Source: Nesterenkonia muleiensis (GTDB taxonomy: Bacteria; Actinomycetota; Actinomycetes; Actinomycetales; Micrococcaceae). From it: a stretch of DNA of 64,000 bases. Shown piece by piece: positions 1,299 to 20,423 of this stretch (its first letter is position 1; every line of letters starts with the position of its first letter). Made by a program: the position numbers and the translations under genes. The notes under the pieces were generated by a model, which saw only the letters and a list, made by a program, of their open reading frames with translations, was not told where the DNA came from and made no database searches. The stretch spans positions 124,001 to 188,000 of the forward strand of contig NZ_QWLD01000003.1 in assembly GCF_003600155.1 (NCBI RefSeq), in the 5' to 3' direction.

Positions 1299-2720
1299 TC
1301 AGCAGTTGGGGTTTTCACGGAACTCACGCGTTCCACCTGGGTGGTCAGGAGGCGCAAGATAGGAGGATTCCTCTAGCCGTTCTTCACTCGAACCGGTATC
1401 CCGGCCGTAGCCACCACCAACCCCGAGAATCTTGGCACGGAATCCCCAGCCGCCGTCTTCAGAAACGCCGGAGAACACATCGTGAGTAGTAACTCCGCGA
1501 TCATATATCAGCTGCTCAAGAGCACTCAATGAGGTTCCGTCCCGTTCTGGCCGCTCGGTCACCCCTTGGGCGTTGGGGGCCATCCCCGCTAGCTGACCAT
1601 CGATTGGATCCGTCATCCAATCCATGACGAGTTGGCGGTCAGCATCAGTCTCGATATCAATCGATGTGGAGTACACCTCGCTGGTGTAATCACCGCTAGT
1701 ACCATTGACCGTTCCCACGGTGAACTCAAGACCGATGACCTCTCCGTCGCTGTTCTCCACCACAGTGAAGGACTCTTCGATCTCATACTGGGGATCGAAG
1801 TCCCACTCGTAAACCCCACCACCAGCTTGGGCACCGAAATTGGACGTGAAGGTGTAAGCCCTCGTCGTGTCTGCAGGGTCGTCACCATGGTGGGTAGCCA
1901 TATGGTACGTGCCGCCGAGAGAGGCACTGCCGCTTATCGACGGCAACCAATCATGACTGAACGAACCTGAGTTATTGACGTTGCCGTCTTCATCCTCATT
2001 GCCTTCGAATCCGGGCCGCAATGAGGCGCTGCCTCCAACTTCACCCTCGAGGCTGAACTGGTGGTGGGTCACGTGAGGGTCACTAGGAGGCTCGGGCGGG
2101 CTGTTGAAGATGGGCCCTAGGACTGGCACATAGTTCCAGTTGGAGTCAACATAGCTCTGCATGTCGTTAACGAATGCCTCGGCTTCTGGCGCATTGTCGA
2201 AGACCCAGGTATCGCCGTTGCCGTATTCCAGTTCAACTCCGGCGTTGGCCCCGGCACCAGCTAATGTGACGTTATTGCCCCAGCTCACGCCAGTATAGGC
2301 ATTCGCCCCGGCAGAGTACCCATCCATGATGGTGACATGGACTTCACCGTCACTGTACTCCTGCCAGGACAACCCCGCGTCTCCGCCCAGGCTGACCCAG
2401 AAGATATCTACGGTCGATCCAGCATTCTGAGCGTTGGAACTGACGGTGCACCGAGGCTGAAAGTCTTCCTCTGTGAGAGGCTCTCTCCCACAGTCACCTC
2501 CGCCGGGCAAATGTGAGCTGATGCTGCAGATCACTTCACTGATGGTGTCCCGCACCTGCGGCGCGAACTGACTGGCCCACGGAAGAGCCACCAGAGAGGC
2601 AATGATGACCGTAATCGCAACCGCCACGCCGGTATATTCCAGAGTTCCCGCCCCCGACTCCCGATCCGGAAGCGAGGCTCTCGGTTCCCACGTGCCCTCT
2701 TGGGCTGTCCCTGTGTGCAT
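1299..2720 (-). CDS. Large secreted protein with Flp-pilin-like N-terminus
   Basis: A 473-residue protein. Residues about 22-48 read SGAGTLEYTGVAVAITVIIA, almost the same as the processed N-terminus of the Flp pilin at 4226-4435 (GQGTVEYVGIAVVITVIIAG), including the Glu-Tyr pair expected at a class III prepilin cleavage site. A long extracellular region with several Cys, Gly-rich and acidic stretches follows, with no domain I recognise. The ATG at 2720 has AAAGGA upstream; earlier in-frame codons lack this. The prepilin peptidase gene lies just upstream. A minor or tip pilin of the Tad pilus is my inference. It is distantly similar to the product at 14142-15383. Confidence 0.75.
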   Translation of the reverse strand: MHTGTAQEGTWEPRASLPDRESGAGTLEYTGVAVAITVIIASLVALPWASQFAPQVRDTISEVICSISSHLPGGGDCGREPLTEEDFQPRCTVSSNAQNAGSTVDIFWVSLGGDAGLSWQEYSDGEVHVTIMDGYSAGANAYTGVSWGNNVTLAGAGANAGVELEYGNGDTWVFDNAPEAEAFVNDMQSYVDSNWNYVPVLGPIFNSPPEPPSDPHVTHHQFSLEGEVGGSASLRPGFEGNEDEDGNVNNSGSFSHDWLPSISGSASLGGTYHMATHHGDDPADTTRAYTFTSNFGAQAGGGVYEWDFDPQYEIEESFTVVENSDGEVIGLEFTVGTVNGTSGDYTSEVYSTSIDIETDADRQLVMDWMTDPIDGQLAGMAPNAQGVTERPERDGTSLSALEQLIYDRGVTTHDVFSGVSEDGGWGFRAKILGVGGGYGRDTGSSEERLEESSYLAPPDHPGGTREFRENPNC

Positions 2721-2947
2721 ATTCCCGTTCCTTTGGTCTTCCCACCCCGTGAAGAAAATTCCTATTCCATATGCACGATACGAGCTGGGCGAGCGGAAAA
2801 CATGAGCCTTAGGCACCTATCACAGGCCTAATTCGCTGCGAGGAGACCTGTCGGTCGAGCCAGGGACACAGAGCAGGTCAAGACATGCTCACATCCGTCC
2901 AGCAACCCACGTGAGGCCCCCGCCGGGCAGGCACGATCGGACGATGC

Positions 2948-3637
2948 TCAATACGCCAAGAGTCCGACGATCAGGACGCCTGCGATCAGGTGGGGGCCAA
3001 GTGCGAGATGAGAACGCGGATCTGCCCGACGGCGAATGATCTGCACTAATCCGAAGCCGAGGCCGATCATCAAGCCAAGACCTACTCCTAGGAGCGTGAC
3101 CATAGGGCCGTGCCATCCCAGCACCAGACCAGCTGAGAGCATAAGTTTGACATCGCCAAATCCCATTTGCGATGGGGAGGCAATGAACAAGATCAAAAAG
3201 AACAATGTCGCGCCGAGCGCGCAGGCCAGAGCCACCCCCCACCGGGACCATTGCCCGGTGACCAGAGCATCTGAAGTCAGAGCAAGCAGACACGCAAGGG
3301 CCAATGGCAAGGTCATCACGTCGGGCAGACGCCGTTCCCGCCAGTCGATGGACGCCAAAAGAGGACCGCTTAAAGCGAAAAGCAGCAGCACGGCCCGTGC
3401 GGGCCAAGAGCCCGTAGGACCAATCGCTGCTAACGTGGCCAATAGACCACCAGCAACACCGTTCCACACCCAAAACCGTCGAGGAGCCGGAGACCCGGTA
3501 AGAAGTGGCGGAAAGAATCCTCTCAACGCCCGGCTAGTTGATGAGTCGGATGTCGTCAAAGAGCCGACCAATCGCTGACGGACTGTAGGACACCGCATTG
3601 CCTGCGCCATCATATTGCACGCTTGCCGAGGCTCCAT
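2948..3637 (-). CDS. A24-family prepilin peptidase (TadV/CpaA type)
   Basis: A polytopic membrane aspartic protease that should cleave the leader peptides of Flp and the TadE/G-like proteins. The two catalytic aspartates are visible: D98 in SIDWRERRLPD and D162 in the GxGD-type motif MGFGDVKL, separated by hydrophobic helices. It lacks the N-terminal methylase domain of PilD, as is usual for Tad systems. The start is uncertain: the longest frame begins at 3637 but overlaps the TadG-like gene by about 100 bases. TTG codons at 3559 or 3526 would remove most of the overlap but have no good ribosome-binding site. Function is secure, start is not. Confidence 0.85.
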   Translation of the reverse strand: MEPRQACNMMAQAMRCPTVRQRLVGSLTTSDSSTSRALRGFFPPLLTGSPAPRRFWVWNGVAGGLLATLAAIGPTGSWPARAVLLLFALSGPLLASIDWRERRLPDVMTLPLALACLLALTSDALVTGQWSRWGVALACALGATLFFLILFIASPSQMGFGDVKLMLSAGLVLGWHGPMVTLLGVGLGLMIGLGFGLVQIIRRRADPRSHLALGPHLIAGVLIVGLLAY

Positions 3638-4205
3638 TACCAGAGCACGTTACTTTCCAGGCGATGAGAGTTTGGCTGTTGTCTTCCCATTGACCGCCAT
3701 CACCTATGCAGCTCACTCCTGCTACGCTCAGTTCGGCTGTCGCCGTGGCATTACCTTGGACATCGCCGATCATATTTGACGTCGTCCCCTGGGCATCGAC
3801 CACTTCGGAGTCAGTGTCGACAGTAATCTCCACGGTTCGGAACCCTGGTGTCCTAGAAGAGTAGTTTCGCACAGTGGAGTTGCTATTGGCCTGCGCAAAA
3901 CTCACTGCTTCCCAATACCCCGACCCGCCCGCAGAAGCCGCATAATGGTCAAAGTCTCTCCACACTTCGTAGCCATCCGCACGGGTAGTGGGCATAATCT
4001 GCCCATGCACCCAGGCGTCAATCCAGTTTCGTTTGGCCTCCTCAGCAGCTGCCAAAGACGCCGCATCGGCTGCCTTTTGGGCCTTGCCCCGCACATCGGA
4101 GGCCTGACCAAGTACCACAAGCCCCAGACCAACGATCAGTACAGATACAGCAAGAAGGAGGACGGCCAGGGACATCTGGCCGTCCTCCTTCTTTATGGTA
4201 CGCAT
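3534..4205 (-). CDS. TadG-like pilus-assembly protein
   Basis: A 223-residue protein with the signature N-terminus of TadE/TadG-like proteins: a short basic stretch, EDGQ, then a long hydrophobic helix (residues 12-35) followed by DVRGKAQKAADAASLAAA, a helix typical of TadG. The rest is a secreted beta-rich domain with two Cys. It is probably processed by the downstream prepilin peptidase and acts at the base of the Flp pilus. The ATG at 4205 is preceded by an in-frame GTG at 4208. A strong AAGGAGGA followed by an in-frame ATG at 4175 is an alternative start, but it would remove the EDGQ region. An 18-bp hairpin spans this part of the gene. Confidence 0.8.
   Translation of the reverse strand: MRTIKKEDGQMSLAVLLLAVSVLIVGLGLVVLGQASDVRGKAQKAADAASLAAAEEAKRNWIDAWVHGQIMPTTRADGYEVWRDFDHYAASAGGSGYWEAVSFAQANSNSTVRNYSSRTPGFRTVEITVDTDSEVVDAQGTTSNMIGDVQGNATATAELSVAGVSCIGDGGQWEDNSQTLIAWKVTCSGNGASASVQYDGAGNAVSYSPSAIGRLFDDIRLIN
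4152..4193. repeat. Perfect 18-bp inverted repeat at the start of the TadG-like gene
   Basis: AAGAAGGAGGACGGCCAG (4152-4169) and its exact complement (4176-4193) enclose a six-base loop. On the minus strand this forms a very stable mRNA hairpin 33 bases after the end of the pilin gene, inside the first codons of the TadG-like gene. The first arm holds a perfect AAGGAGGA and the loop holds an in-frame ATG. It could protect or terminate the abundant pilin mRNA, or limit translation of the downstream gene. Confidence 0.85.
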
Positions 4206-4225
4206 CACTTAAGTGTTTCCAGACC

Positions 4226-4435
4226 TTATCCGCTGATGCCTTCTGCGATGGAGGAGATCACACGCGAGATCACAGAGTTGATCTCCTCGTAGATCTGGCT
4301 CTCTGTGAGAACCATCACAACACCGGCGATGATGACGGTGATCACCACTGCGATGCCGACATACTCAACAGTTCCCTGACCTTCTTCTTTGCGCTGTTCG
4401 AGAGCGTTCTTCAGGTTGAGGTAGAAGTTCATCAT
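4226..4435 (-). CDS. flp: Flp family type IVb pilin
   Basis: A 69-residue prepilin, the expected size. A charged leader (residues 1-19, ending KEEGQ) is followed by GTVEYVGIAVVITVIIAG, the class III hydrophobic stretch with the Glu-Tyr pair, and a short amphipathic tail. It is the major subunit of the Tad/Flp pilus and would be processed after the Gly by the peptidase at 2948-3637. AAAAGGATT lies eight bases before the first of two adjacent ATGs. It has its own upstream region with a small hairpin and a motif shared with the assembly operon, suggesting separate but coordinated expression. Confidence 0.93.
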   Translation of the reverse strand: MMNFYLNLKNALEQRKEEGQGTVEYVGIAVVITVIIAGVVMVLTESQIYEEINSVISRVISSIAEGISG

Positions 4436-4663: not shown

Positions 4664-5359
4664 TCACAGCTGATTGCGGAACCAGACGCTGACTGCTTCT
4701 GCACGCGACCCGACTCCCATTTTGGAGAAGATCCGGTTGGTGTGGTTCTTGACCGTCTTTTCGCTGAGGAACAGCTGACCGGCGATCTCCTTGTTCGGAA
4801 GCCCGTCCGCCACCAGCTCCATAATCTGTGCCTCCCGCCCGCTGAGGCCGAAGGGGGAACGCCCACGCACAACCTCCGTGGTACTGTCCGTAGCTCTTTC
4901 GTCGGTAACTGTCTCTGATATGCGTGGATTCGCTTCGGCATCGCTCCCAGAACCTGACATGACCGCGGTGATGGCACTGGGTGACATCAACGATGCCCCG
5001 CCAGCCACGGAGTGAAGCGCCTTGGAGAGGTCCTCCATCTGAATCTCGTTATACACCACGTATCCCCGTGCACCGTTTCGCAGCGCAGAATTGATCACTT
5101 CGTGCTCTTCGCTGTGGGTCAGCATCACCACTGGGCAGATGCACGAAATGGTCTTCACCGCCTCGACACCAGTCATCACCGGCATCCGCACGTCCAATAA
5201 GCAGATATCGGGTGTGAGCTCCTGAGCAAGGTCAATAGCCTGCTTTCCGTTCTCAGCCGATCCTACGAGTTCCAAGTCCGGCAGTGCATTCAAGATCTGC
5301 TCCAGGCCTGTACGGACTACCCCGTTATCGTCCGCTATCAGTACACGCAAAGTACTCAT
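4664..5359 (-). CDS. NarL/LuxR-family response regulator
   Basis: A 231-residue two-domain regulator. The receiver has the acidic pair D10-D11, phospho-acceptor D56 (LLDVRMP) and T81. The position of the normally conserved Lys after GYVV is Tyr103, which is unusual. A linker of about 40 residues leads to a LuxR-type helix-turn-helix (about 165-228: LSGREAQIMELVADGLPNKE and SEKTVKNH). It overlaps the sensor-kinase gene by ATGA, so the two are translationally coupled and form a two-component pair. Its place at the end of the assembly operon, just before flp, suggests control of pilus genes. Confidence 0.9.
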   Translation of the reverse strand: MSTLRVLIADDNGVVRTGLEQILNALPDLELVGSAENGKQAIDLAQELTPDICLLDVRMPVMTGVEAVKTISCICPVVMLTHSEEHEVINSALRNGARGYVVYNEIQMEDLSKALHSVAGGASLMSPSAITAVMSGSGSDAEANPRISETVTDERATDSTTEVVRGRSPFGLSGREAQIMELVADGLPNKEIAGQLFLSEKTVKNHTNRIFSKMGVGSRAEAVSVWFRNQL

Positions 5360-6549
5360 GAGTCTTCCTCCTGACCAGCCACCGGCACGATGAGCGTCAC
5401 CTCAGTCCCCTGTCCCTCCCGAGACTTCACGGTCAGCTTACCCCCGACCTCCTCAGTTCGTTCACGCATCCCGACCAGACCGTAGTGATTGTCCTTTCGG
5501 TGGCCTTTTCCCGTTCGCGTGGAAAACCCGCGCCCTGCGTCGCGGACAACTACCTGCAGCCTGCCCCCCGTATAGGAGACTTCGCACTCCACGCGCTCTT
5601 CACCGGAATGGGTGACTGCGTTGATCAGAGCTTCCTCAGCAATCTTTTGAGCGACATATCGGATGTCAAGGGGCAGCGGAGGCATTGCGGTCGCGATCAC
5701 GTGGTCTACCGTGACACCGTGTATCGCCTGCACTTCGTCAACCACCTTCTGCAGCGAATCCTCCAATGGGGGAACCGCCGCCTCACGCAGGTCGGTCAGC
5801 AGCAGACGGGACTCCGCAATAGCTTCTGTGGCCGACTCGCTGATCTGTTGCGCCTCCTCTGCTGACTTTCCGCTGATCACCATAGCCTTCGCCTGCAGCG
5901 AGATACCTTCGAGACTCTTGACCAGTGAATCGTGTAGTTCCCTTGCCAACCTGGACCGTTCCTGTCCCAACGCGGCATCGGCTGCGGCGGATCGAGCCTG
6001 CTCGATAGCGGTGTCAACCTGCTTCTGCAGCCGTTGCATCACGCTGCCCACGCAGGTGAGGCTGGCGAAAAGTACCAATGATGCCATGACCGTCGTCGGC
6101 GATTGCGCCCACGAATTTCCATCCGACAGGTGAATCGCAACAACCATGATGTACCCCGATGAGAGCAACATCGTCAGGAGGACCTGTCCCAGCACTGGGA
6201 AGAACAGCCCGATGAGCACCGCGGTAGTGCCCAGATAGCCCATGTATGCGGTGGGTGTGTTCGCATTGGCAAAAACAACAAGTCCCAACAGAATGTCAAG
6301 ACCGACTGCTGCTGGGTGCCGGGCGATGAAAGGGGCCACACGATCCCACGCCAGGAGGACGCTCAACGAGGTCGCCAATACCGCCCCAAGCATCACGAGC
6401 TCGCTGAACCCACCTTCCTCGCCCGCGACCACCGCCACCGGATAGGTGCAGATCAAGCGCAGGACCAGAGCGATCTTGCCGCATTTAACCAGAACGTACC
6501 CTGCCTTTACAGAACCGGAGCTCTGCCTTCTCCTTGCGGCAGCCATCAT
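5356..6549 (-). CDS. NarL-type sensor histidine kinase
   Basis: A 397-residue kinase. About five membrane helices fill residues 20-170 without a large extracellular loop. A coiled segment leads to the HisKA_3 phospho-acceptor box RLARELHDSLV with His206. The ATPase domain shows the N-box (EEALINAVTHSG), DAGRGF and the G-box near HYGLVGMRERTEEVGG. It should autophosphorylate and pass phosphate to the regulator at 4664-5359. Its first ATG overlaps the stop of the TadC gene (ATGA), so it is part of the pilus operon. The signal is unknown; an intramembrane-sensing layout is possible. Confidence 0.9.
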   Translation of the reverse strand: MMAAARRRQSSGSVKAGYVLVKCGKIALVLRLICTYPVAVVAGEEGGFSELVMLGAVLATSLSVLLAWDRVAPFIARHPAAVGLDILLGLVVFANANTPTAYMGYLGTTAVLIGLFFPVLGQVLLTMLLSSGYIMVVAIHLSDGNSWAQSPTTVMASLVLFASLTCVGSVMQRLQKQVDTAIEQARSAAADAALGQERSRLARELHDSLVKSLEGISLQAKAMVISGKSAEEAQQISESATEAIAESRLLLTDLREAAVPPLEDSLQKVVDEVQAIHGVTVDHVIATAMPPLPLDIRYVAQKIAEEALINAVTHSGEERVECEVSYTGGRLQVVVRDAGRGFSTRTGKGHRKDNHYGLVGMRERTEEVGGKLTVKSREGQGTEVTLIVPVAGQEEDS

Positions 6550-7442
6550 TCTCCGAACAGGGTCCCGAAGTCGATGTCAGCGACATACCAGATGCTCACC
6601 AGCAGGAGCACCATAGTGCCAGGGACCATGATCAAGGTGACCACACTAGCGATCTTGGGCGAGGCTTTTGAGGCTTCCTGCCGCGCTCGCTGGGCGCGTT
6701 TCTGCCGCAGGTCCGTGGCAATCTGGTCCAGAGACTCCACCAAGGGAGACCCTAAGTCCTCCGACTGCATCAAGGCGGTGACGAACGCTTCCATGGATTG
6801 CGATTTGGTCCGCTCCTTCATATCGCGGAACGCCTCATATCGCGATGTACCCACGTCCATCTGCCGAAGAGCTGTCTGCATTTCCACTGCCAACGGCCCC
6901 TCAGTCCTCTCGAGCACACGTTGCAGAGCACCACGAAACGAAAGACCGGCGGATACTGTCACCGCAAGGACATCTAAGAAATCTGGAAGCGCGTCCTCGA
7001 TCTCCTCCTGCCGACGCCGGCCAGCGGAGTAGAGGATGAGGTCCGGGAGGAAAAAGCCAAGAATGACGACGAGCAGCGGAAACAGAACGTTCTGAGTGAA
7101 CATGAACAGCGCCACCGCGCCCAATCCGAAGATCAGCAGCAGGCGCGCTTTCATGGCAAAGAAGTCTGCCGGGGAAGCGAACTCCTGAGACTGCGCATAG
7201 ACCAGACGTGTGGACACGAAATTCCGATAGGAGGCCCCCATGACTCCCGAGATCTCAGGACCCACTCGCTGTCCGAACCAGGTGAACGGGCTCTTTCCAC
7301 GACGCCGCCTCGCCGGCTCTTTGATCAGGGCTCGGTCCTCGACGCTGAGATGGCCGAGGGGGTCTGCCCGGACAAGACGAAGCCCGTAGGCCAGCGCGCC
7401 GAAGACCAGCACGGCGCCAAGGCCCCAGAGGAGTGGTTCCAT
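6546..7442 (-). CDS. tadC: Type II secretion F-domain protein, TadC
   Basis: A 298-residue inner-membrane platform protein of the Tad pilus. It has an N-terminal helix, two central helices (around residues 96-130) and the T2SSF cytoplasmic domain (about 145-270, including ALPDFLDVLAVTVSAGLSF and LGSPLVESLDQIATDLR), ending in a C-terminal helix. Its ATG shares one base with the stop of TadB, and its stop overlaps the kinase start. TadB and TadC together form the platform on which the CpaF-type ATPase acts. The order and size fit the family; TadC rather than TadB is assigned from position. Confidence 0.9.
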   Translation of the reverse strand: MEPLLWGLGAVLVFGALAYGLRLVRADPLGHLSVEDRALIKEPARRRRGKSPFTWFGQRVGPEISGVMGASYRNFVSTRLVYAQSQEFASPADFFAMKARLLLIFGLGAVALFMFTQNVLFPLLVVILGFFLPDLILYSAGRRRQEEIEDALPDFLDVLAVTVSAGLSFRGALQRVLERTEGPLAVEMQTALRQMDVGTSRYEAFRDMKERTKSQSMEAFVTALMQSEDLGSPLVESLDQIATDLRQKRAQRARQEASKASPKIASVVTLIMVPGTMVLLLVSIWYVADIDFGTLFGE

Positions 7443-8371
7443 CAGATCTTCACCTTGGTGATCCGGTTGATCAGCAGCAAGCCGATCACATAGGTGATAC
7501 CTGTGATGAACAGGGCAATCTGCCCCAGGACGCTGCTGGTCAGGTCGTAGAGCAGGCCGGGCGACATCCAGTTGAACAGCAGAAGGAGTCCTACGCCGAA
7601 GATGACCACAACGTAGCCGGTAAAACTCGCTTGAGTGATCAGAGTGCGCACCTCACGCGCGGTCTCCTTACGGTCCTCCAGAGCCTGCGCCATACCTCGT
7701 AACGCCGTGATGAGCGAGCCGCCAGAACGTTGGGAGATCACCAGAGTTCCGATCAGCACCGTAAGATCTCGACCGGGGATACGCTGCTCCATGCGCTCAA
7801 GACCGATATCAATGGGCGTGCCAATACTGAGTTCGTCATCCAATATGTTCAGCTCACGGCCCGCTGGGTCAGACATTTCGGACGCAGCGATCTGCAGCGC
7901 AGTGCGAATGGAGAGCCCAGCACTGGTCGAGTTGGCGAGAATGCGGGCAAGCTCGGGCAATTGACTGAGAAACAGACGATACTGTCGCTGCCTCAGAAAG
8001 CCCAGAAGTCCAAGCAACCCCCAGAGCGCAGCAATCATCATCAACAAGGCATAGAACAACGTCACTTGCGAGTTGGCGACGAGAAATACCGCAATCACCG
8101 ACACCATGCCCAATACGGTGTACTCCAAAGGGTATAGCGTTCGGAGATTCGCCTCAGTGAAGCGCCTCTCAAGATCCCGCCCGTAACGGGTACGGACAAA
8201 CGCATGGTTCAGAGGGCGAATGAACCCCCCTCGGAAGCTGCCCCTGAGGCCACCGGACTCAGCCCGAACCACTGCAGCCTGATCAGCTGATCCTGAAGCG
8301 AAAAGCACCAGGCCGATACACGCAATGACCAGGACACCCGCTAAGACCAGCAGGAGAAGTTCAGGGCTCAT
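7442..8371 (-). CDS. tadB: Type II secretion F-domain protein, TadB
   Basis: A 309-residue membrane protein with an N-terminal helix (residues 3-24), two helices near 105-140, a T2SSF domain (about 140-275: LPELARILANSTSAGLSIRT, QRSGGSLITALRGMA) and C-terminal helices. It begins directly after the stop of the CpaF-type ATPase gene with no gap, as expected for partners made in equal amounts. It should be half of the heteromeric pilus platform with TadC. Confidence 0.9.
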   Translation of the reverse strand: MSPELLLLVLAGVLVIACIGLVLFASGSADQAAVVRAESGGLRGSFRGGFIRPLNHAFVRTRYGRDLERRFTEANLRTLYPLEYTVLGMVSVIAVFLVANSQVTLFYALLMMIAALWGLLGLLGFLRQRQYRLFLSQLPELARILANSTSAGLSIRTALQIAASEMSDPAGRELNILDDELSIGTPIDIGLERMEQRIPGRDLTVLIGTLVISQRSGGSLITALRGMAQALEDRKETAREVRTLITQASFTGYVVVIFGVGLLLLFNWMSPGLLYDLTSSVLGQIALFITGITYVIGLLLINRITKVKI

Positions 8372-9796
8372 TCAGATAGCCACCCCCGGCTGCCGGCAGG
8401 CAGCGCCTGCTTCAACAGGGATGTGCGCGGGAAGTGGATTTCCGGACAACCAGAAACGATCAGCGAGCGCAGCAGGCACTTCAAACTGCTTGACGGTGCC
8501 CCGCGTGAGGCGATCGGGACCGGGAGGTTCCTGCTCGAAACGCATCAGAGGTTGAAGGGCAAACTCTTCGCGCCGCGAAGAGACTACGGTCGCCACCTCG
8601 ACAACTCGGCGGGAACCGTCGCCGCCTCGGCTGAGCTGAACGATGATATCTACCGCGGAATTGATCTGATCGCGGATGGCCTCGTAGGGAACCTCGATTT
8701 CACTCATTGAGGCCAGAGTTTCCATTCTGGAGACTGCATCATCTGCGCTGTTGGCGTGCACTGTCACCAGAGACCCATCGTGGCCGGTGTTCATCGCCTG
8801 GAGCATATCTAGGGTCTCACCACCACGAACTTCGCCGACGATGATGCGGTCCGGCCTCATACGTAGGCTGTTTCTCACCAAATCGCGAATAGTCACCTGT
8901 CCCTTGCCCTCGATATTGGCAGGACGGGACTCCAGTCGAATCACGTGAGGCTGCTGAAGCTGGAGTTCCGCGGAGTCCTCGATTGTGACGATGCGCTCAC
9001 TATCTGGAATCAGTCCAGACAAAGCATTCAGCAGAGTTGTCTTACCCGTGCCGGTTCCCCCGGAGACCACCACGTTCAACCGGGCTCTGACGCAGGCTGT
9101 CAGCAGTTCAGCCGTCTCGGCGGTGAAGCTGTCTTTCTCCACCAGATCGTTGATTGAGAAAGGAGTGGGAAAGCGCCGTATGGTGATGGATGCGCCGTCC
9201 AGAGACAGGGGTGGGACAATCACGTTGACGCGTTCACCAGTGGGCAGCCTCGCGTCAACCATGGGAGATGACTCGTCCACACGGCGGTTGACACCCGCCA
9301 CAATGCGGTCGATCGTTTGCATCAGCTGCTCATTGCTGGAGAATCCGTAACTCATCCTCTCCAGACGCCCGGCGCGCTCCACGAAAATATCATCGGGGCC
9401 ATTGACCATGATCTCGGTGACGCTGGGGTCCGCAAGCAGAGGCTCCAGAATGCCCAAGCCAAGGGCCTCGTCCACCACTTGACGAATGATCGCCTGACGT
9501 TCCCTGGTGGAAAGAACAGGACCCTTTCTGGAGATCAGCTGGCTCATGACCCGTTCGAGGCGGACCCGCTGCTGGGTGCTGTCCAGTCTTGCGAGTTCTT
9601 CGAGGTCGATCTCCTCCAGCAGCAGCTGTCGATATTCAACAGCTGCCTGTTCGTGCGCGCTGCTGGCTTGTGCAGCGCCGGTCAGGGTGCCCTTGGCCCG
9701 CGCCTGGCCTGCAGCGCCGTTTCCAGACCACGGCTTCTCGGGCCCCTGTGATCCCTGCTTGAGCTTATGAGCCTCTGCTCGTCGAAGCAACGCCAT
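8372..9796 (-). CDS. cpaF: Tad pilus secretion ATPase CpaF/TadA
   Basis: A 474-residue cytoplasmic hexameric ATPase that powers Flp pilus assembly. The Walker A motif GGTGTGKT is at residues 246-253, the acidic box at TIEDSAELQL, and the Walker B region at RPDRIIVGEVRG (314-325), followed by a conserved His region (LVTVHANSADDA). The N-terminal domain (about 95-210) is the usual CpaF module; the first 55 residues are a poorly conserved Gln/Ala/Gly-rich extension. It lies three bases after TadE and abuts TadB. Confidence 0.95.
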   Translation of the reverse strand: MALLRRAEAHKLKQGSQGPEKPWSGNGAAGQARAKGTLTGAAQASSAHEQAAVEYRQLLLEEIDLEELARLDSTQQRVRLERVMSQLISRKGPVLSTRERQAIIRQVVDEALGLGILEPLLADPSVTEIMVNGPDDIFVERAGRLERMSYGFSSNEQLMQTIDRIVAGVNRRVDESSPMVDARLPTGERVNVIVPPLSLDGASITIRRFPTPFSINDLVEKDSFTAETAELLTACVRARLNVVVSGGTGTGKTTLLNALSGLIPDSERIVTIEDSAELQLQQPHVIRLESRPANIEGKGQVTIRDLVRNSLRMRPDRIIVGEVRGGETLDMLQAMNTGHDGSLVTVHANSADDAVSRMETLASMSEIEVPYEAIRDQINSAVDIIVQLSRGGDGSRRVVEVATVVSSRREEFALQPLMRFEQEPPGPDRLTRGTVKQFEVPAALADRFWLSGNPLPAHIPVEAGAACRQPGVAI

Positions 9797-9799
9797 ACT

Positions 9800-10207
9800 T
9801 TAGTCGCTACCAGTCGGCATCGTCGCGGATCGGGAAATCGTCGTCGCAGGCAACGGATCCCACCAAAAATCTGTTCCGATAATGGGGACATTCACATCTG
9901 CCGTACAGGTGATGCTCGATCCCCCTGACCCCCCGCAGGAGACGGATGACCCTGGGCGCAACGAAGAGCTGAGGGCGTCGAGTCCGGCGCTTGTCCCCGT
10001 CCCCGCTGCCAGAGACTCGGCTCGGGCGGCGTCACGAGCAGCAGTGTTGGCCTGACTGAGCGCGTGCATGGCTAAGAATCCTTGCCAAGCAAAAACCACC
10101 ATGATGAACACAAAGATCATGGTTCCCAGAAACTCAAGGCCCACCGTTCCCCGTTCGTTCTTCCTCGCCAGACGGCCTACTCGCCTCCGTGCTGTTGACA
10201 TCCTCAT
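9800..10207 (-). CDS. tadE: TadE-like pseudopilin
   Basis: A 135-residue pseudopilin. A basic leader ends at NERG, followed by TVGLEFLGTMIFVFIMVVFA with the Glu of the class III motif, then the helix ANTAARDAARAESLA typical of TadE. Two Cys in the short secreted domain could form a disulphide. It should be cleaved by the A24 peptidase. The ATG overlaps the stop of the upstream fusion gene by ATGA. A second TadE-like domain forms the C-terminus of that fusion protein, so the operon encodes two TadE modules back to back. Confidence 0.88.
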   Translation of the reverse strand: MRMSTARRRVGRLARKNERGTVGLEFLGTMIFVFIMVVFAWQGFLAMHALSQANTAARDAARAESLAAGTGTSAGLDALSSSLRPGSSVSCGGSGGSSITCTADVNVPIIGTDFWWDPLPATTISRSATMPTGSD

Positions 10208-11886
10208 GGCTCCTCCACTACTCCTGCACTCGCCTCGATCGGAACGATCAGTTCTCGGGTGGCGGGCACTAAAGCCGGGGTTCTGAGGGAGACAGTGACC
10301 CGGTCACCTGAGTGGTTAACGGCCATGTCACGGCGCCAGGGTCCAGGAGTTGACGATTCAGCAGCCTCGACCGCTGAATTGCCCACCGCAGCGGCACGGG
10401 CAGCCTCACTGGCTGAATGTGAGGCGAAGATCCAGGTGGTCCCCAGAAGCACCAGCTGAAAAGCAATCGCCGCTACTGTGACAAAGAGCGCTACCACCCC
10501 GAGGAACTCGAAGGTGGACTGACCCTCTTCGCGCTCACTGCGCACAGCTTTCCTTGTCCGTGCTCCCGTTCCAGTGAGCTGAAGCATGGAATCATCAGCT
10601 TCACGCAGCTCGACCTGGGATTCGGGCTTCTGCTGCTCTGATATGCGCCGCCCTGACCTTCGGCGCCCTGTCTTCTTGCCTGTCTGCTCCCTCTTAGGCG
10701 GTTTGTCTTTTCGCGTCCTGGCCAGGGACGCTGGAGGCACGATCTGCATCTCACGACCCAGCTCCTGGATCTTATGCGACCAGTCTGAGCCTGCCATCGC
10801 CGGATCGCGCCGATTCACGGCCTGCTCGAGGGGGCGATCCATCTTAGGCAGTACAGTGCGGTAGCTCTGCAGAGCCACGATCTTGCGAGCGGATTCAGGC
10901 TGGATGTCGTTCGTCTTGTGCACGCCGTTGAGGACCACCCGCACACTTTCGGACTGCCGAGCACCAATGCGCTCCCACAAAGACGCCAGTCGTCGAACCC
11001 CGCGAAGTGCCAGAACATCGGCCTGCGCGACCACACATACTTCATCGGCCATCTCCACCGCAGTGGCATTAGCCTCACCGATGACGGACCCTACATCCAC
11101 AATGACCACATCAAAGCGAGAACGGAGGACGCCGAGGATCTTCTTGGCGGCGGCTTCAGCGACCAGCTCTCCACGCTCTCCTTCACCCGGCCCGAAAAGC
11201 ACTGAAAGCCCTGCCGGATGGTCAAAGAGCACATCGCCTATAAAGCGAGGAGACAACTCATCCACTACGCTAAGCAGGTCGGTGATATCGCGCTGGCGAG
11301 GCGCATCGATCAGAATGGACTGATCCGGCTTCTGCAGGTCCAGATCAACCAGCACCACTTTACGACCACTGGTTTGAGCCGCTTCTAGTGCTAGGTGCAA
11401 AGCTATTGTGGATGATCCTGCACCGCCCTTTGCCGAGGCAACTGCGATCATCTTGCCAGCACCGAGACTATTCTCGTCATCGTGACTGCGCTGAACCGCC
11501 TTGCGCAGCGAAGCACCCCAGGATGTGGCTGCCTGGACACGGGCCGATACATTCTCAAAGTTCAGCGGATATGCGATGACGCCACGGGATCCAGAGTCCA
11601 GAGCAGTGGCGAAATCCTCACTCTTGGGCTCGGCGACGACAGTGAGCACCGCAATCGAAGGGTACCGCCCCGACACTTCGGCCGCCAGATCCCACATCGG
11701 CATAGGTGATGATGACTCATCGATCACCAGCACATCGATGTCCTGTTCCCCGTATTGGGCGATGGCAGCAAGAAGAGCCTGAGTGGAGGAGTACTGACGC
11801 GATACGTCCGCCTCCGAATCAGAGAGGGCTTGACGGATTTCCCAACTACGCTTTTCATCTGCGCAGCACAGTACAGCTTTAGCCAT
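10204..11886 (-). CDS. CpaE/TadZ-like ATPase fused to a TadE-like pseudopilin domain
   Basis: A 560-residue protein with three parts. Residues 1-125 form a receiver-like domain as in TadZ/CpaE. Residues about 145-385 form a MinD/ParA-type ATPase with deviant Walker A KGGAGSST (153-160) and VLVDLDLQKPD. After a basic linker (about 390-430), residues 450-500 read REEGQSTFEFLGVVALFVTV and SEAARAAAVG, a TadE-like class III prepilin segment. TadZ places the pilus machinery at a pole; TadE is a pseudopilin. I know of these as separate proteins. No stop separates them; a GTG with AAGGA at 10545 could start a separate TadE. The start at 11886 lies two bases from CpaB. Confidence 0.85.
   Translation of the reverse strand: MAKAVLCCADEKRSWEIRQALSDSEADVSRQYSSTQALLAAIAQYGEQDIDVLVIDESSSPMPMWDLAAEVSGRYPSIAVLTVVAEPKSEDFATALDSGSRGVIAYPLNFENVSARVQAATSWGASLRKAVQRSHDDENSLGAGKMIAVASAKGGAGSSTIALHLALEAAQTSGRKVVLVDLDLQKPDQSILIDAPRQRDITDLLSVVDELSPRFIGDVLFDHPAGLSVLFGPGEGERGELVAEAAAKKILGVLRSRFDVVIVDVGSVIGEANATAVEMADEVCVVAQADVLALRGVRRLASLWERIGARQSESVRVVLNGVHKTNDIQPESARKIVALQSYRTVLPKMDRPLEQAVNRRDPAMAGSDWSHKIQELGREMQIVPPASLARTRKDKPPKREQTGKKTGRRRSGRRISEQQKPESQVELREADDSMLQLTGTGARTRKAVRSEREEGQSTFEFLGVVALFVTVAAIAFQLVLLGTTWIFASHSASEAARAAAVGNSAVEAAESSTPGPWRRDMAVNHSGDRVTVSLRTPALVPATRELIVPIEASAGVVEEP
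10543..10555 (-). promoter_or_regulatory. Possible internal ribosome-binding site and GTG start for the TadE-like part
   Basis: Inside the ATPase-TadE gene, AAGGA (10555-10551) precedes an in-frame GTG (10545-10543) by five bases. Starting here (residue 448) would give a free protein of about 113 residues with a normal short pseudopilin leader VRSEREEGQ. This would let one gene make both a fused and a free form. Confidence 0.4.
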
Positions 11887-11888
11887 GT

Positions 11889-12740
11889 CTACCCTTCCTC
11901 ATCCTCAGTTTCTTCGCCATCATGATCGTCCTCGTCGGATCCGCTGTCTTCGTCGAGTTCTTCAGGCGCTTCCTGGAAGTTCGGCCCAAGGTCGATGTCC
12001 TGGAACGACTGGTCGCTCTCTTCGAAAGCAGTGCCGGTCTCGTTATTGCCGGCGCGGACGATACGCATTGAAATAGCGAATGACTCCCCGTAAGCCAACT
12101 GGGTTGCTTCTCCCACTGTCACGGCAAAGGTCACGGGGACCACCACACCCGGGTCGTTTGTTCCTTCTGCTGCCGCTCCAGCTGCTGCCCCCGCGTCCAT
12201 AGGCTGTCCCACTGAGACCACCTCAGCGTTTTGCACCAAGATGCCGGAGACGTTGTAAGGAATATCAGCCCGACGGTAGGAAATGTCGCCGACTTCCGGG
12301 CCTCCCCTGTCCCGAGCGAAGGAGGCGATCACATCGACCTGGTCGCCTGGCTGGACGCGGCCGAAGATTCCCTGATCTCCTGCAAAGTTGATGGAGACTT
12401 CACGCTCACCGTCTTGTAGGGACGAGGCAGGTTCCAGCATGTCGGACTGCAGATATGAACCCTCATTGATCTCAGATGACGCCTTCATGCCCACCAGGTC
12501 CTCCTGCTGAGTGATCATCTGGTCGTTGAGGTACTTATCCGGGACCTCCTCAGTTTCCACGAAATCGAGCGAGATGGCCTGATGGACTCCGATCTCCTCG
12601 TTCGTGACGTAAACCTCAGTGGTGGGACCCACCTCCGCGCGGACCCCGCTGACGTAAGAGGTCACGCCTAAGAAAACCGCGACAGCGCCGATCACAGCGA
12701 TGATCAACGTGATCACGCCACGAAGTTGCTTCGGGTTCAC
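11889..12740 (-). CDS. cpaB: Flp pilus assembly protein CpaB/RcpC-like (SAF domain)
   Basis: A 283-residue protein with one N-terminal membrane helix (residues 9-28), a SAF/beta-clip domain (about 40-110, containing AISLDFVETEEVPDKYL and INEGSYLQSDML), an RcpC-like region (about 112-235, GRVQPGDQVDVIASF) and a strongly acidic C-terminal tail. In Gram-negative Tad systems CpaB/RcpC is periplasmic and works with the secretin; here there is no outer membrane or secretin gene, so it may act at the cell wall. It overlaps the preceding gene by ATGA and is followed two bases later by the ATPase fusion gene. Confidence 0.88.
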   Translation of the reverse strand: MNPKQLRGVITLIIAVIGAVAVFLGVTSYVSGVRAEVGPTTEVYVTNEEIGVHQAISLDFVETEEVPDKYLNDQMITQQEDLVGMKASSEINEGSYLQSDMLEPASSLQDGEREVSINFAGDQGIFGRVQPGDQVDVIASFARDRGGPEVGDISYRRADIPYNVSGILVQNAEVVSVGQPMDAGAAAGAAAEGTNDPGVVVPVTFAVTVGEATQLAYGESFAISMRIVRAGNNETGTAFEESDQSFQDIDLGPNFQEAPEELDEDSGSDEDDHDGEETEDEEG

Positions 12741-13558
12741 CGAGTGGCCTCCTTGATGTCACTTTCCTGTGAACCGCGACTCTCTGATGCGGTCAGGGCC
12801 GGCACTGCAGCGGTCATCAGTGCACGCACGGGAATGTCATCGAGCACAGGCTCAGCTTCAGCGGCGCGTCGGGCGGCGCTGCTGAGATTGCTGGGGGCCA
12901 GAACGATCTGAGCCCCTTGGGGCGTCCCCCACCAAGTGGGGTCTGGGTTGGGGCGGCGGACGACGTCTTGAGGCTCCAGATGTCCCAGCACCCCTTCGAG
13001 AACATCATTCACGCGTGTCGAACTCTTCTTATCCTGAACCGCTTCACCGACGATGGCGATGCTCCCCTCAGCAGCCAAATCGAAGTGTTCAAAGGTCTTT
13101 TCTGGCTTCCTCCGGGAGTAACGCCGTACGGCATCGCCCCGCTCGGCAATGTAGGTACCACCAGGTATCCAGCTGCGAGCGTGTAACCACAGTCCCACCT
13201 TGGGTTCGTCCATGTTAATGACCGAAGGCACAACTGCCAGGCAACGGATCTGCGATTCCAAGACTGCCAATGCTGGGAGAACCCTGTGCGGGGGCAGTGC
13301 TCTCATCAAGGGTTGAGCCATCTCATGGAGCACGCCGACCCCAAGCGGTGACAATCGAGTCACGTGAAAAGCCACCAGAGTCTCTTCGTAACCCGCCCGC
13401 GCCTGATAGACCAAGTGCCGGCTCTCGGCATGCCTTCGGTGAGGACTGATGAGCACAGCCCATGAGCCCTGGGTGGCACCGAGAATGTCTAACGCGTCGT
13501 TCATTGTTTCAGGGGCTGTCGTAATAGCTCCCACAGACGGCGCAATTTCCGTTCGCAT
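12737..13558 (-). CDS. Unknown protein, first gene of the Tad assembly operon
   Basis: A 273-residue protein without signal peptide or clear membrane helix, so probably cytoplasmic. I see no motif that I recognise; it has mixed alpha/beta character with clusters such as MNDALDILGATQGSWAVLIS and several Trp in the central part. The ATG at 13558 has only a weak GGAA upstream. Its stop overlaps the CpaB start (ATGA), so it is translationally tied to pilus assembly. A regulatory or scaffold role is possible, but nothing in the sequence shows it. Confidence 0.7.
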   Translation of the reverse strand: MRTEIAPSVGAITTAPETMNDALDILGATQGSWAVLISPHRRHAESRHLVYQARAGYEETLVAFHVTRLSPLGVGVLHEMAQPLMRALPPHRVLPALAVLESQIRCLAVVPSVINMDEPKVGLWLHARSWIPGGTYIAERGDAVRRYSRRKPEKTFEHFDLAAEGSIAIVGEAVQDKKSSTRVNDVLEGVLGHLEPQDVVRRPNPDPTWWGTPQGAQIVLAPSNLSSAARRAAEAEPVLDDIPVRALMTAAVPALTASESRGSQESDIKEATR

Positions 13559-16486: not shown

Positions 16487-18367
16487 CTACTGGTCTTCGG
16501 CGGAAGCATCGTCAGTCATGGTGATGTGGTCCGAAACATCCTGAGGAAGGGGGAGCTGGCCCGCATCGGGCAGGTGCAGAACAACGGGGCCCTCGAGCTC
16601 TTCGGAGAGGTGGAACTGGGCGTAGAGCGGGCTCTGCGCCATCGGCAGCGTTTCCACGGTCCCGGCGACCTCGGTACAGAGACAGCCCATGTCACCAGAG
16701 CCCAAGGGGAAATACCGGCGTTCAGCGCCGATGTCGATGAGGCTCATGTTGGACAGTCCCGGGGATGTGCCGTCACCTTGGGGATTGTGCCCAAAGTGTT
16801 GTTTGCCGCCTATTTCTGGGTTACCCGTGAACACCCTCCCTGATTCTCTATGACCTGGCGGTGCAGCCAACGCAAAGCGCATCGTCACGAGCTCACCGGT
16901 TCGCTCTGCATCCAGCACGTCGAATCGGATCGGCGTCTCTGAGGTATCGTCCTCAGGAGGTTCGACAATGAACGAGGCTTGCGCTCCCTCTGCTGGGTCT
17001 ATGCTCAGTGCATCGGGAAGTTCAGGGACACCTGCCTGGCCGAGATCGACCTCAATGCCAGCCTCCTGGACGACTATCGGATAGCGAAAGCTGACCCGCC
17101 GATTCCGCTCTTGATTCTCTGGTATCGGCTCACCGTCAGCATCCAAGTTGGGAACCTGGGGCCTTGTGAAACCATAGCCTACGATCTCTAATTCAATGGT
17201 GTCATCCAAATGCTCTTCGATCACATCAGCCACAGCCTGTGAACGTTCCTCAGAGAGTTCTTCGTTCAGCTCAGCCGAACCCACATTGTCTGTATGACCT
17301 TCCACTGTCACCGTGAAACCGGCCGCTTCCTCGTTCAGTTTCTCTGCCGCAGATTCAATAATATCTGCAGCCTCATCCATCAAATCCGCAGAGCCGAATT
17401 CGAAGAGCACATCGGAAGGTAATGAGACCTCCTGAGTCTCCTCTTCGATAGTTGTGGTCACGCCGCTCAGAGTTTCGGTGCGCGCCGCTATCGGATACCG
17501 CACTTCATAACGCGCCCCTGCTCCGTACTGTTCAGGCGGGTCCTCCCCGGAAGCGTGCGTGAAGAACCATGAAGAATCCTGATTAGGGCGGGCGAACGTT
17601 TCTCCTGAGGAGACTTCAACGTCGGGTATCGGTTCAGCCCATTCCCCTGGCACAATATCCACCGATTCGGATTCCGGTGCGGGAAAATCCACATAGATGA
17701 GCTCGGTGCGGCTTGGCGGGTCATCTGCAGCCCCGGAGAGCATCGAGCATATGCAGGTACCCCTGTCAGGGACTTCACTGTCGATGCCGTTCTGGGACGG
17801 CTGCGGCTCGTCGGACTCACTATCCTGGCCAGCGAGGTCTGCTGTGGTTTCTTCCTCGTCCGTCACGCTGGTGATCTGCGGAGGTTCATCGACACTGAAG
17901 AAGTTGGACTCCGCACGTAACGGCTCAATCAGTTCCCCCGCGTCTCGATCCACAAGTCGAATAAACGGCGTTGCCTCGTATCGGTGCTTATGCGAACTTA
18001 GAACGATCGACCCAAGGGGTATGCCTTCGTCTGGGGCCAGCCACGCCATCACCAATCGCACGAACTCGCCATCACTGTCCAGAGACAAAATCTGCAGCTT
18101 CGCCGTGGCCAGTTCATCATCACCTTCCGGTGCCGGGAGAGTAAGTATGGTCTCGGCCACCGGATCGGGCAAGGCCTCGTCCCGCCAGAAACCCTCGTCA
18201 AGAACTGTGCCTCGAGAAACACTGGATGGTGATGCATCTGGCTCTACGGTGGGTTCCTCGGTGCCTCCGCAGCCGGTCAGCACCAGCGATGAGAGCCCCA
18301 CCACTCCCACCAAGAAACTGGCTCTGCGTTGCCCATTTCGCAGTCGAGAACCTCGGCGCCTAGTCAT
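16487..18367 (-). CDS. OmpA-domain lipoprotein 1
   Basis: A 626-residue lipoprotein. The lipobox VLTGC puts the lipidated Cys at residue 33. Residues about 312-432 form an OmpA/MotB-type peptidoglycan-binding domain (SLPSDVLFEFGSADL, TVEGHTDNVGS, ERNRRVSFRY). It is flanked on both sides by related beta domains, each carrying a CxC pair (TCICSM near 204-209 and CLCTE near the C-terminus) with a DFP/LxxELEGPVV-like strand. The start is one of ATG 18367 or 18376. It is a paralogue of the next gene at 18525-20423. It should be lipid-anchored and hold the cell wall; a link to Tad pili is inferred from position. Confidence 0.85.
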   Translation of the reverse strand: MTRRRGSRLRNGQRRASFLVGVVGLSSLVLTGCGGTEEPTVEPDASPSSVSRGTVLDEGFWRDEALPDPVAETILTLPAPEGDDELATAKLQILSLDSDGEFVRLVMAWLAPDEGIPLGSIVLSSHKHRYEATPFIRLVDRDAGELIEPLRAESNFFSVDEPPQITSVTDEEETTADLAGQDSESDEPQPSQNGIDSEVPDRGTCICSMLSGAADDPPSRTELIYVDFPAPESESVDIVPGEWAEPIPDVEVSSGETFARPNQDSSWFFTHASGEDPPEQYGAGARYEVRYPIAARTETLSGVTTTIEEETQEVSLPSDVLFEFGSADLMDEAADIIESAAEKLNEEAAGFTVTVEGHTDNVGSAELNEELSEERSQAVADVIEEHLDDTIELEIVGYGFTRPQVPNLDADGEPIPENQERNRRVSFRYPIVVQEAGIEVDLGQAGVPELPDALSIDPAEGAQASFIVEPPEDDTSETPIRFDVLDAERTGELVTMRFALAAPPGHRESGRVFTGNPEIGGKQHFGHNPQGDGTSPGLSNMSLIDIGAERRYFPLGSGDMGCLCTEVAGTVETLPMAQSPLYAQFHLSEELEGPVVLHLPDAGQLPLPQDVSDHITMTDDASAEDQ

Positions 18368-18524
18368 CACACCCATTGATTGTATCCGCACCTACCTGAT
18401 CACTGATGAGCCGTGGCGTTCCAGCCACAGACCCCGAGAGCAGCCAGGGCCGAAAGTGGAATCTCAGCGCAGTCTCCCCCGAGTCTGCTGTGCTTGCCTG
18501 TTCTCAGGGAATGCCCGGCTACCC

Positions 18525-20423
18525 TTACCCGCCTTCAGTGAGCTGCTCGAGCAGCTCATCGGGCAGTTCGATGTGGCCTCCGTCTGGAATCCGCAGGACT
18601 ACCGGGCCTTCCAGGGACTCCGGGAGCTCGAACTCAGCGAAAGCTGGCACCGCATCAGGCCCCAGGCCTTCATAGGTGGAGAGTCGTTCCGAGCACAAAC
18701 ACCCTTGGCCACCGAACATCACTGGGAAGTACCGTTGTTCATCACCTACATCAACCAGACTGATATTGAGCATATTCGGCGCAGAATGGGTTTTATTCTG
18801 GTAGACGCTCCTGCCGAACTGACGGTCTGTGGATCCGCCGCCGAAGACTCCGAAGGCAGAATCATCGAACGCGTCAGCATCTGCATCGGCAACTCCGAGC
18901 CGCAACACCACAGAGTCATCTCGCCGCTGAGCCTCCAGCAGATCGATCCGGATGTCTACCTCGTTCTGGTCGTCTTCCGGAGCCTCAATAACGTAGGAGC
19001 CCACCGCACCCTCTGACGCCTCGATCTCCTCGGCATCAGCAAGCTCATCCAACTCCTCAAACTCTCCCAGCTCAATCACAGTCTCGGATTCCTCCACCAC
19101 GGTGTATCGGAAACTCACTCTGCGGTTCAGCGCCTGGTTCTCTTCGATCTCATTGCCCTCCACGTCGGTATTGGGCACCAAAGGACGATTGAAACTATGC
19201 CCCTCCGTCTCGATGGTGATGGCATCGTCCAGCAGCGGTTCAATGGCTTCAGCCACCGCTTGCGCACGGTTCTCCGACAGCGGCTGATTCACATCATGAC
19301 CACTGACATTATCGGTATGTCCCTCAATGACTACCGTCTCACCGGACGCCTCCTCATTGAGCATCTGGGCAGCAGCCTCGATGATCGACTCGGCCTCACC
19401 CACCAGGTCGTACTCCCCGAACTCAAACAGCACATCAGCAGGCAAAGAAACCTCCTGAGTATCTCCTTCAATCGTGGTCGTCACTCCCGTCAGTGACTGC
19501 GAGCGAGCCTGCAGCGGAAGACTGGCAACGTACTCGGCACCAGCCCCGTACACCTCTCCAGGCGCCTCGTCATTTATGGATGGCATCTCAAACTCTGCCA
19601 GTTCTTCTTCCTCGGGATCGAACTCGAAAGGTTCGCCCTCAGTGACTGGCACATCAGTGATCGGCTCAGCCCACTGTCCCGGCAGAACCTCGACACGCTC
19701 TGACTCCGGGACAGGGAAGTCGATGAACATCAGCTCAATGCTCTCTGGAGCCTCCGCATCAGCAGAACTCTGCGTGGTGACCTCTGAGCAGATGCAGGTT
19801 CTGCGCGGGCGCCAAGGGTCCATCTCCTCGAACGGATCGGCATCTTCAATGCTGGCCGGTGCAGTGATATCGAACCGTGACTCAGAGGTCAGCAACGGCC
19901 AATGCGCCTGGCCCGCTTCCCGATCAACAAGCCGAATATATGGACGATGCAGCACCTCCCCCGGTTCATTCTGCAGCTCCTCCGAACCAAGGAACGCCCC
20001 CTGCTCGGGAACCAGCCAGGCAAGAATCATCCGCGCATATTCACCGTCAGAGTCCAACGACAGGATCTCCAGCTTCGCTGAAGCGACCTCTCCGTCAGTA
20101 TCGATGACAGGGGCCTCCATCACCATCTCAGCAACCGGCTCAGGCAGAGTGTTCAGCCGCCAGAAACCATCCTCTGCCTCAATAGCAGGCTCCACGTCAT
20201 CGTCATCTTCATCACCCTCGTCCTCTGGCGCACCAGGGCTCCCCTCGGCGCCAGAATCGCCCTCAGCGGTCGGTTCCCCCGCCGGAACACCCCCGGGCTC
20301 TTCAGCAGCACTCTCATCGTCACCATCAAACGTATTCTCAGGCGCACACGCCGTCACAAAGAGCGCGCCGACAAGAACTCCGCCTAGGATCTTTTGCCGC
20401 ATACCAACAGATTCCGTTCCCAT
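18525..20423 (-). CDS. OmpA-domain lipoprotein 2 (paralogue of 16487-18367)
   Basis: A 632-residue lipoprotein with lipobox FVTAC (Cys26) and a very acidic linker (residues 30-85). The order is the same as in its neighbour: beta domain with CxC (RTCICSEV), central OmpA domain (SLPADVLFEFGEYDL, VIEGHTDNVSG, NRRVSFRYTV), and a second beta domain with GCLCSER and SLEGPVVLRIPDGGH. Many blocks are identical between the two, so they arose by duplication. GGGGAA precedes the ATG at 20423. OmpA-type domains bind peptidoglycan; in an organism without outer membrane the protein should link membrane and wall. Confidence 0.87.
   Translation of the reverse strand: MGTESVGMRQKILGGVLVGALFVTACAPENTFDGDDESAAEEPGGVPAGEPTAEGDSGAEGSPGAPEDEGDEDDDDVEPAIEAEDGFWRLNTLPEPVAEMVMEAPVIDTDGEVASAKLEILSLDSDGEYARMILAWLVPEQGAFLGSEELQNEPGEVLHRPYIRLVDREAGQAHWPLLTSESRFDITAPASIEDADPFEEMDPWRPRRTCICSEVTTQSSADAEAPESIELMFIDFPVPESERVEVLPGQWAEPITDVPVTEGEPFEFDPEEEELAEFEMPSINDEAPGEVYGAGAEYVASLPLQARSQSLTGVTTTIEGDTQEVSLPADVLFEFGEYDLVGEAESIIEAAAQMLNEEASGETVVIEGHTDNVSGHDVNQPLSENRAQAVAEAIEPLLDDAITIETEGHSFNRPLVPNTDVEGNEIEENQALNRRVSFRYTVVEESETVIELGEFEELDELADAEEIEASEGAVGSYVIEAPEDDQNEVDIRIDLLEAQRRDDSVVLRLGVADADADAFDDSAFGVFGGGSTDRQFGRSVYQNKTHSAPNMLNISLVDVGDEQRYFPVMFGGQGCLCSERLSTYEGLGPDAVPAFAEFELPESLEGPVVLRIPDGGHIELPDELLEQLTEGG

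Follow-up and report, generated by a model that had tools for sequence, protein, structure and literature searches.

A TadZ/CpaE-type ATPase fused to a TadE-like prepilin in an actinobacterial Tad pilus operon

Published work describes TadZ as a protein with an atypical Walker A motif that binds ATP and dimerises (available parts of PMC13170226 and PMC6668835), and in a model of the Caulobacter system CpaE dimers encircle the motor at the membrane, which they contact through an amphipathic C-terminal helix (PMC13170226, same excerpt). Prepilin leaders are cytoplasmic and vary in length, and the peptidase takes them off at the cytoplasmic face, as stated in the accessible sections of PMC10191384. 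The tad clusters of Micrococcus luteus are, like the one described here, actinobacterial Tad clusters with TadE/F minor pilins; in the available portion of that paper (PMC4322843) a TadB–TadC fusion is noted, no TadZ ortholog is reported and no TadZ–TadE fusion was found. A search of the open PubMed Central literature, which included the accessible text of PMC4322843, PMC3244431, PMC6668835, PMC2947987, PMC13170226 and PMC10191384, found no report of a TadZ/CpaE–TadE fusion. The fusion described here is likely to be previously unreported; domain-architecture databases may already list it.

The window, the whole stretch of DNA that was analysed, comprises 64,000 nucleotides of Nesterenkonia muleiensis. 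An earlier note on this DNA had proposed a single uninterrupted gene, of unstated strand, joining a polar-localisation ATPase to a class III prepilin segment. The reading frame is indeed unbroken over its 560 codons and lies on the minus strand (Table 1). Its landmarks are where they had been placed: KGGAGSST starts at residue 153, and the prepilin segment REEGQSTFEFLG, expected near residue 450, starts at residue 452. A computational check for a stop or frameshift between the two domains found none, and the full-length fusion occurs with an open reading frame in 4 of 30 Nesterenkonia genomes, the window's and three others; two Nesterenkonia relatives of the protein are 72 and 63% identical to it in their best segment. 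The TGA stop of the fusion gene overlaps the ATG of the downstream gene (ATGA).

Judged by its neighbours, the fusion gene belongs to a complete Tad pilus operon of Nesterenkonia. All genes are on the minus strand, in the order unknown conserved gene, CpaB, fusion, second TadE-like protein, TadA, TadB, TadC, histidine kinase, response regulator, Flp, Tad/TadG-like protein and A24 peptidase. The genes at 7442..8371 and 6546..7442 are ones that we take to be TadB-like and TadC-like. From the unknown gene through the response regulator, gene order is identical in the relatives L004, L005 and L230; past the response regulator it varies, with the Flp match of L005 lying upstream of the operon and L004 stopping at the response regulator. 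Each of the four fused Nesterenkonia genomes has two A24 genes.

Table 1. Features of the fusion gene and of the surrounding tad operon (positions in the window; a slash marks the predicted cut)
Feature	Position	Strand	Basis or remark
CpaB/RcpC	11889..12740	(-)	Pfam RcpC, 49.6 bits
TadZ/CpaE–TadE fusion gene	10204..11886	(-)	560 aa, ATG start; read 11886 down to 10204
Receiver (REC)-like alpha/beta domain, residues 1-125	11512..11886	(-)	AF2 model; Pfam Response_reg below cut-off
ParA/MinD-type ATPase domain, TadZ/CpaE kind, residues 142-392	10711..11463	(-)	Pfam AAA_31; Foldseek 3ea0, 3fkq
KGGAGSST, atypical Walker A without P-loop lysine, residues 153-160	11407..11430	(-)	lysine at that position in 0 of 165 homologues
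Low-complexity linker, residues 393-442	10561..10710	(-)	predicted disordered, poorly conserved
Basic leader ending at Gly455 (-1), residues 443-455	10522..10560	(-)	predicted prepilin-peptidase cut after Gly455
TadE-like mature pilin, residues 456-560, E+5 = E460	10207..10521	(-)	long helix, then strands
Second TadE-like minor pilin gene	9800..10207	(-)	Pfam TadE 20.5 bits, cut-off 22.9; start overlaps fusion stop by 4 nt
TadA/CpaF motor ATPase	8372..9796	(-)	TIGR03819 345.6 bits, cut-off 373.15
TadB-like platform protein	7442..8371	(-)	position and order; weak UpsF match
TadC-like platform protein	6546..7442	(-)	position and order; weak UpsF/ArlJ match
Flp major prepilin, 69 aa, EEG/QGTVEYVG	4226..4435	(-)	motif as described in the available text of PMC4322843
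Tad/TadG-like protein	3534..4208	(-)	Pfam Tad (TadE/G-like), 33.1 bits
A24 prepilin peptidase (TadV/CpaA kind), likely cutter	2948..3637	(-)	Pfam PF01478, 53.8 bits; D at 98, GFGD at 159

Several other genes of the locus deserve mention. The histidine kinase and the LuxR-type response regulator (4664-6549, minus strand) sit within the operon between TadC and Flp, and also come after TadC in L004, L005 and L230. The gene at the head of the operon (12737-13558, minus strand; 273 aa) has no family in Pfam or PHROGs; its counterparts in the other three Nesterenkonia with the fusion are 45-63% identical to it, and of two Streptomyces loci one gives a weak match. A protein of 505 aa (1299-2816, minus strand) combines an Flp-like class III signal, ESGAGTLEYTG, with a large C-terminal part that might make it a pilus-borne adhesin; it has no Pfam, NCBIfam or PHROGs match. 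Two long lipoprotein-like paralogues (16487-18391 and 18525-20426, minus strand) lie a few kb from the tad operon, and their EGHTDN resembles, as judged by eye, an OmpA-type peptidoglycan-binding motif. Given two further TadE matches in the same genome (G000:C31:5660-5788 and G000:C13:188708-188836), both above the Pfam cut-off, the host may carry more than one Tad-like system.

The AF2 model of the fusion protein, built from six sequences (mean pLDDT 60.4, pTM 0.40), is laid out as a receiver-like domain, an ATPase, a disordered stretch, a helix at 445-500 and short strands. Over residues 1-120 strands alternate with helices at a ten-residue mean pLDDT of 60-90, and the ATPase domain is placed at 146-380 with low to moderate confidence. 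Foldseek of the model returned the ATPases ParA, FleN and MinD, the two-domain protein 3fkq from E. rectale and a receiver domain, 3jte. The ATPase half passes the Pfam cut-offs for AAA_31 (55.7 bits), CbiA and ParA; Pfam Response_reg reaches 19.9 bits, under its cut-off of 30.2. On the strength of its ATPase and receiver-like domains and of the tad locus context, the N-terminal part is of the TadZ/CpaE type. Filing the protein as Ssd, the actinobacterial CpaE homologue of TIGR03815, was dropped at a score of 49.1 bits against a cut-off of 154.45. All 165 distinct homologues, fused or split, lack the P-loop lysine of the Walker A motif and have T, A, S, G, V or C at its position, and this suggests slow or no ATP hydrolysis across the TadZ subfamily. 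The atypical Walker A of the fusion protein agrees with the TadZ descriptions in the available parts of PMC13170226 and PMC6668835.

The C-terminal half (residues 443-560) is, by its sequence features, a TadE-like class III prepilin with the prepilin-peptidase motif EEG/QSTFEF: the class III signal is present, with a basic leader, G at -1, E at +5 and a hydrophobic helix. For the window's fusion protein taken alone, family models give weak evidence of TadE: the isolated C-terminus matches NCBIfam TadE_Rv3655c at E 2.2e-6, but its 28.1 bits fall under the cut-off of 40, and Pfam TadE has no match. The identification rests on the homologues. Among the 41 non-Streptomyces fused homologues, the window's included, Pfam TadE matches 11 and TadE_Rv3655c 18 (E <= 0.001), and in split relatives the segment homologous to the fusion's C-terminus is the next gene of the same operon, tadE; because of both observations we regard the C-terminal half as TadE-like. 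Together with the Pfam ATPase matches, they uphold the proposed domain call of a TadZ/CpaE ATPase joined to a TadE-like class III prepilin, and a check for homologues with a non-TadE-like C-terminus did not refute it. In the whole-protein model pLDDT is 68-88 over residues 461-560, and a single-sequence model of the isolated C-terminus (pLDDT 71.5) has a long helix and three strands. A fold search of the PDB with this modest model gave no match at E <= 0.001, and a PDB sequence search with the TadE part gave one match, to a non-pilin, at E 0.3.

Searching genomes for the same fusion yielded 170 distinct homologous loci, of which 73 are fused, 92 have a separate tadE next and 5 are unclassified, the total excluding the duplicates L230 (same gene as L011) and L190 (of L008). 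A sequencing or assembly error that joined two genes in the window is ruled out by this recurrence in many independent genomes, and we give it next to no credence. Genomes with a match at E <= 1e-30 number 27 of 396 in the order, 21 of 396 in the phylum, 119 of 121 in the Streptomyces sample and 11 of 66 in another class; the threshold is not biased towards fusions, because every locus of these samples scores at least 139.8 bits on the ATPase alone. The order sample contains 28 loci (25 fused, 2 split, 1 ended by the contig) and the phylum sample beyond the window 22 (13 fused, 8 split, 1 without a nearby TadE). All 4 new loci from the other-class sample are fused, and the 119 loci of the Streptomyces sample comprise 32 fused, 84 split and 3 at contig ends, seven loci being common to the phylum and Streptomyces samples. 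Among classifiable loci, 41 of 43 outside Streptomyces are fused, as are 32 of 116 in the Streptomyces genus sample, so that the earlier statement that the two proteins are normally separate needs correcting within this actinobacterial TadZ subfamily. Fused forms are found in the window's order, in Streptomyces, in many families and in several actinobacterial classes.

Some matches fall outside this picture. Locus L039 (98 bits on the ATPase) and weaker family matches were kept out of the fused and split classes, and six served as the tree outgroup. In the window's family 293 of 295 genomes have some match (E <= 0.001), and the TadZ subfamily is patchy there, because no match beyond the four Nesterenkonia is better than 1.3e-27. 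L113 (G934:C15) belongs to the same TadZ subfamily, but no TadE was found near it; it forms the longest end branch of the ATPase-domain tree, and its genome has two fused copies (L096, L112). A tblastn search of plasmids with the fusion gave no match at E <= 1e-15. The order- and phylum-wide searches ruled out a fusion limited to Nesterenkonia.

The region joining the two halves combines a variable linker with a conserved predicted cut site. In the AF2 model pLDDT is below 50 over residues 344-459. Identity to four relatives amounts to 1-18 of 50 positions in the linker and 56-63 of 105 in the TadE part, and in the 41 non-Streptomyces fused proteins 8 to 226 residues (median 17) lie between the residue aligned with 392 and the cut site. 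All 73 fused loci have G at -1, with E at +5 in 70 of them and D in the remaining 3; since the site picker accepted either G or A at -1 but insisted on an acidic residue (E or D) at +5, only the -1 glycine is an open result. In a picker-free MAFFT alignment of the 41 non-Streptomyces fused proteins, the 15 invariant columns include G455 and Walker A residues; at column 460, 38 proteins have E and the other 3 have D. Position -2 is free in these rows (entropy 2.63 bits) and -3 is E, D or Q, while in the Streptomyces fused rows the entire neighbourhood of the site is conserved, as expected for close relatives. In 66 of the 73 fused loci the most hydrophobic stretch follows directly on the G/E+5 motif, versus 552 of 3650 shuffled stretches; among the seven misses, three have D at +5 and four have the most hydrophobic stretch beyond the site. 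L085, with G/QATVELPV and a hydrophobic helix on the same reading frame, was counted as fused.

Such a site bears on whether the chain is cut at all. Were the fusion left uncut or cut only in part, the TadE helix would permanently anchor the ATPase ring to the membrane and couple ATP-driven dimerisation directly to a base-bound pseudopilin. This would suit the single continuous chain with its flexible linker in the AF2 model, the membrane ring modelled for CpaE around the Caulobacter motor (available part of PMC13170226), and M. luteus, where, according to the accessible text of PMC4322843, TadE/F are needed for surface Flp yet absent from sheared pili, so that TadE may act at the base. However, a permanent tether needs neither an invariant -1 glycine, which a merely tethering stretch has no obvious reason to keep, nor any exchange with a split arrangement such as that in Streptomyces, and an A24 peptidase is present in the same locus. 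Of the two options in the earlier note, cleavage by the A24 peptidase and a lasting tether, we consider the tether unlikely and favour cleavage, because all 73 fused homologues keep the -1 glycine and relatives in Streptomyces have switched between one gene and two.

An ATPase-domain tree of 61 rows, built by a quick method, requires 5 changes of the fused label when all other groups are set against it and 4 when only fused and split are compared, with at least 3 changes on well-supported branches; no split row occurs in several lineages outside the branch that includes Streptomyces and the other split pair. Trees of Streptomyces require 4 or 5 fused/split changes, and a single origin of the Streptomyces fused rows is rejected (p-AU 4.3e-18, LG+G4 quick tree). 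On this phylogenetic evidence the two forms have switched more than once within Streptomyces; change counts are independent of the root, and either form may have come first. From the cpaE stop to the tadE start, 33 of the 92 split loci overlap, 47 are within 0-20 nt, 9 within 21-60 nt and 3 otherwise, a count that takes the in-frame start nearest the cpaE stop and so leans towards adjacency. A stop codon lost or gained, together with a frame shift in overlapping pairs, would suffice to change the state. The fusion could then be a neutral accident, a stop loss tolerated since the prepilin is cut anyway and conferring no advantage, as the overlapping or adjacent genes of the split relatives and the repeated switching would allow. 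Against this, 41 of the 43 classifiable non-Streptomyces loci are fused, across many families and several classes, which suggests retention. We put the chance of such an accident at a little under even; it is compatible with cleavage and rivals only the idea that both parts are delivered together.

A separate TadE could also arise without cutting if the reading frame were translated twice, once in full and once from a start near the leader. In the window gene codon 448 is a GTG, which lies seven codons ahead of Gly455, is preceded by a Shine–Dalgarno-like stretch and would give a leader of 8 residues; the leaders of split tadE can be as short as that. Starts of this kind, with a Shine–Dalgarno-like stretch, occur within 40 codons in 13 of 74 fused rows (one duplicate, L230, among the 74), but in 26 of the same 74, the nearest relative L004 included, the 40 codons ahead of the site contain neither ATG nor GTG nor TTG. 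We consider internal initiation improbable; in the window gene itself the GTG at codon 448 leaves it some weight.

The reading that we prefer and consider probable is that of a two-in-one precursor, in which TadZ serves as an outsized leader peptide for a TadE minor pilin, and the two would be parted by the A24 peptidase encoded in this locus. The 455 N-terminal residues would act as the TadZ/CpaE hub and double as the cytoplasmic leader. The basic patch and hydrophobic helix would insert with the N-terminus in the cytoplasm, parking TadZ at the membrane, and the peptidase would cut after Gly455 to yield a 455-residue TadZ and a 105-residue mature TadE. TadZ would then be released, and TadE would enter the pilus or its base. 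A TadZ ahead of the leader breaks no topological rule, because leaders are cytoplasmic, are cut there and vary in length (available sections of PMC10191384). Expression from a single gene would supply equal numbers of both parts and bring the hub and the minor pilin to one site before release, and the Caulobacter CpaE ring model (excerpted text of PMC13170226) makes this co-delivery, by analogy, plausible. Counted against the precursor reading are the scores of the window protein under the curated TadE cut-offs, the internal GTG at 448, the TadE model without a PDB pilin match, and L113 without TadE. A further step, which we find rather doubtful, would make the prepilin peptidase a polyprotein protease: TadZ would stay at the membrane while the minor pilin is being put in place and would be freed by the cut, so that maturation would serve as a timed TadZ switch. 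If this were true, pilin maturation would also switch TadZ, in a lineage spanning several actinobacterial classes.

The fusion bears on two questions, the recruitment of other Tad parts by TadZ and the role of TadE. The occurrence of a natural fusion in many families, its cut site intact, is evidence for TadZ and TadE working in one place and in linked amounts, and Streptomyces, with its mixture of fused and split forms, offers ready natural controls.

Set beside TadZ/CpaE of Tad (Flp, type IVc) pili, the fusion protein likewise has a receiver-like domain, a ParA/MinD-type ATPase with an atypical Walker A and a place in a tad operon. PDB entry 3fkq, titled 'NtrC-like two-domain protein', is one that we take to be the Eubacterium rectale TadZ structure; Foldseek aligns it over 383 columns (E 2.2e-8), but at an rmsd of 18, so that the domain arrangement is not reproduced. 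What the fusion protein adds to known TadZ/CpaE is a C-terminal linker and a complete TadE prepilin. In Streptomyces, L006 and L007 have the same order cpaB-cpaE-tadE-tadE2-tadA-tadB-tadC as the fusion operon, but there, and in L008, the adjacent cpaE and tadE are parted by a stop codon and a fresh start. With the TadE/TadF minor pilins, pseudopilins processed by TadV, the fusion protein shares the G/xxxxE site, the hydrophobic helix, the small C-terminal domain and an adjoining second TadE-like gene. The tadE leader of split relatives, counted from the start nearest the cpaE stop, has 8-37 residues in 78 of 89; in the fusion an ATPase of 455 residues takes the leader's place, which would widen the concept of class III leader peptides, hitherto short tails, to include a whole ATPase.
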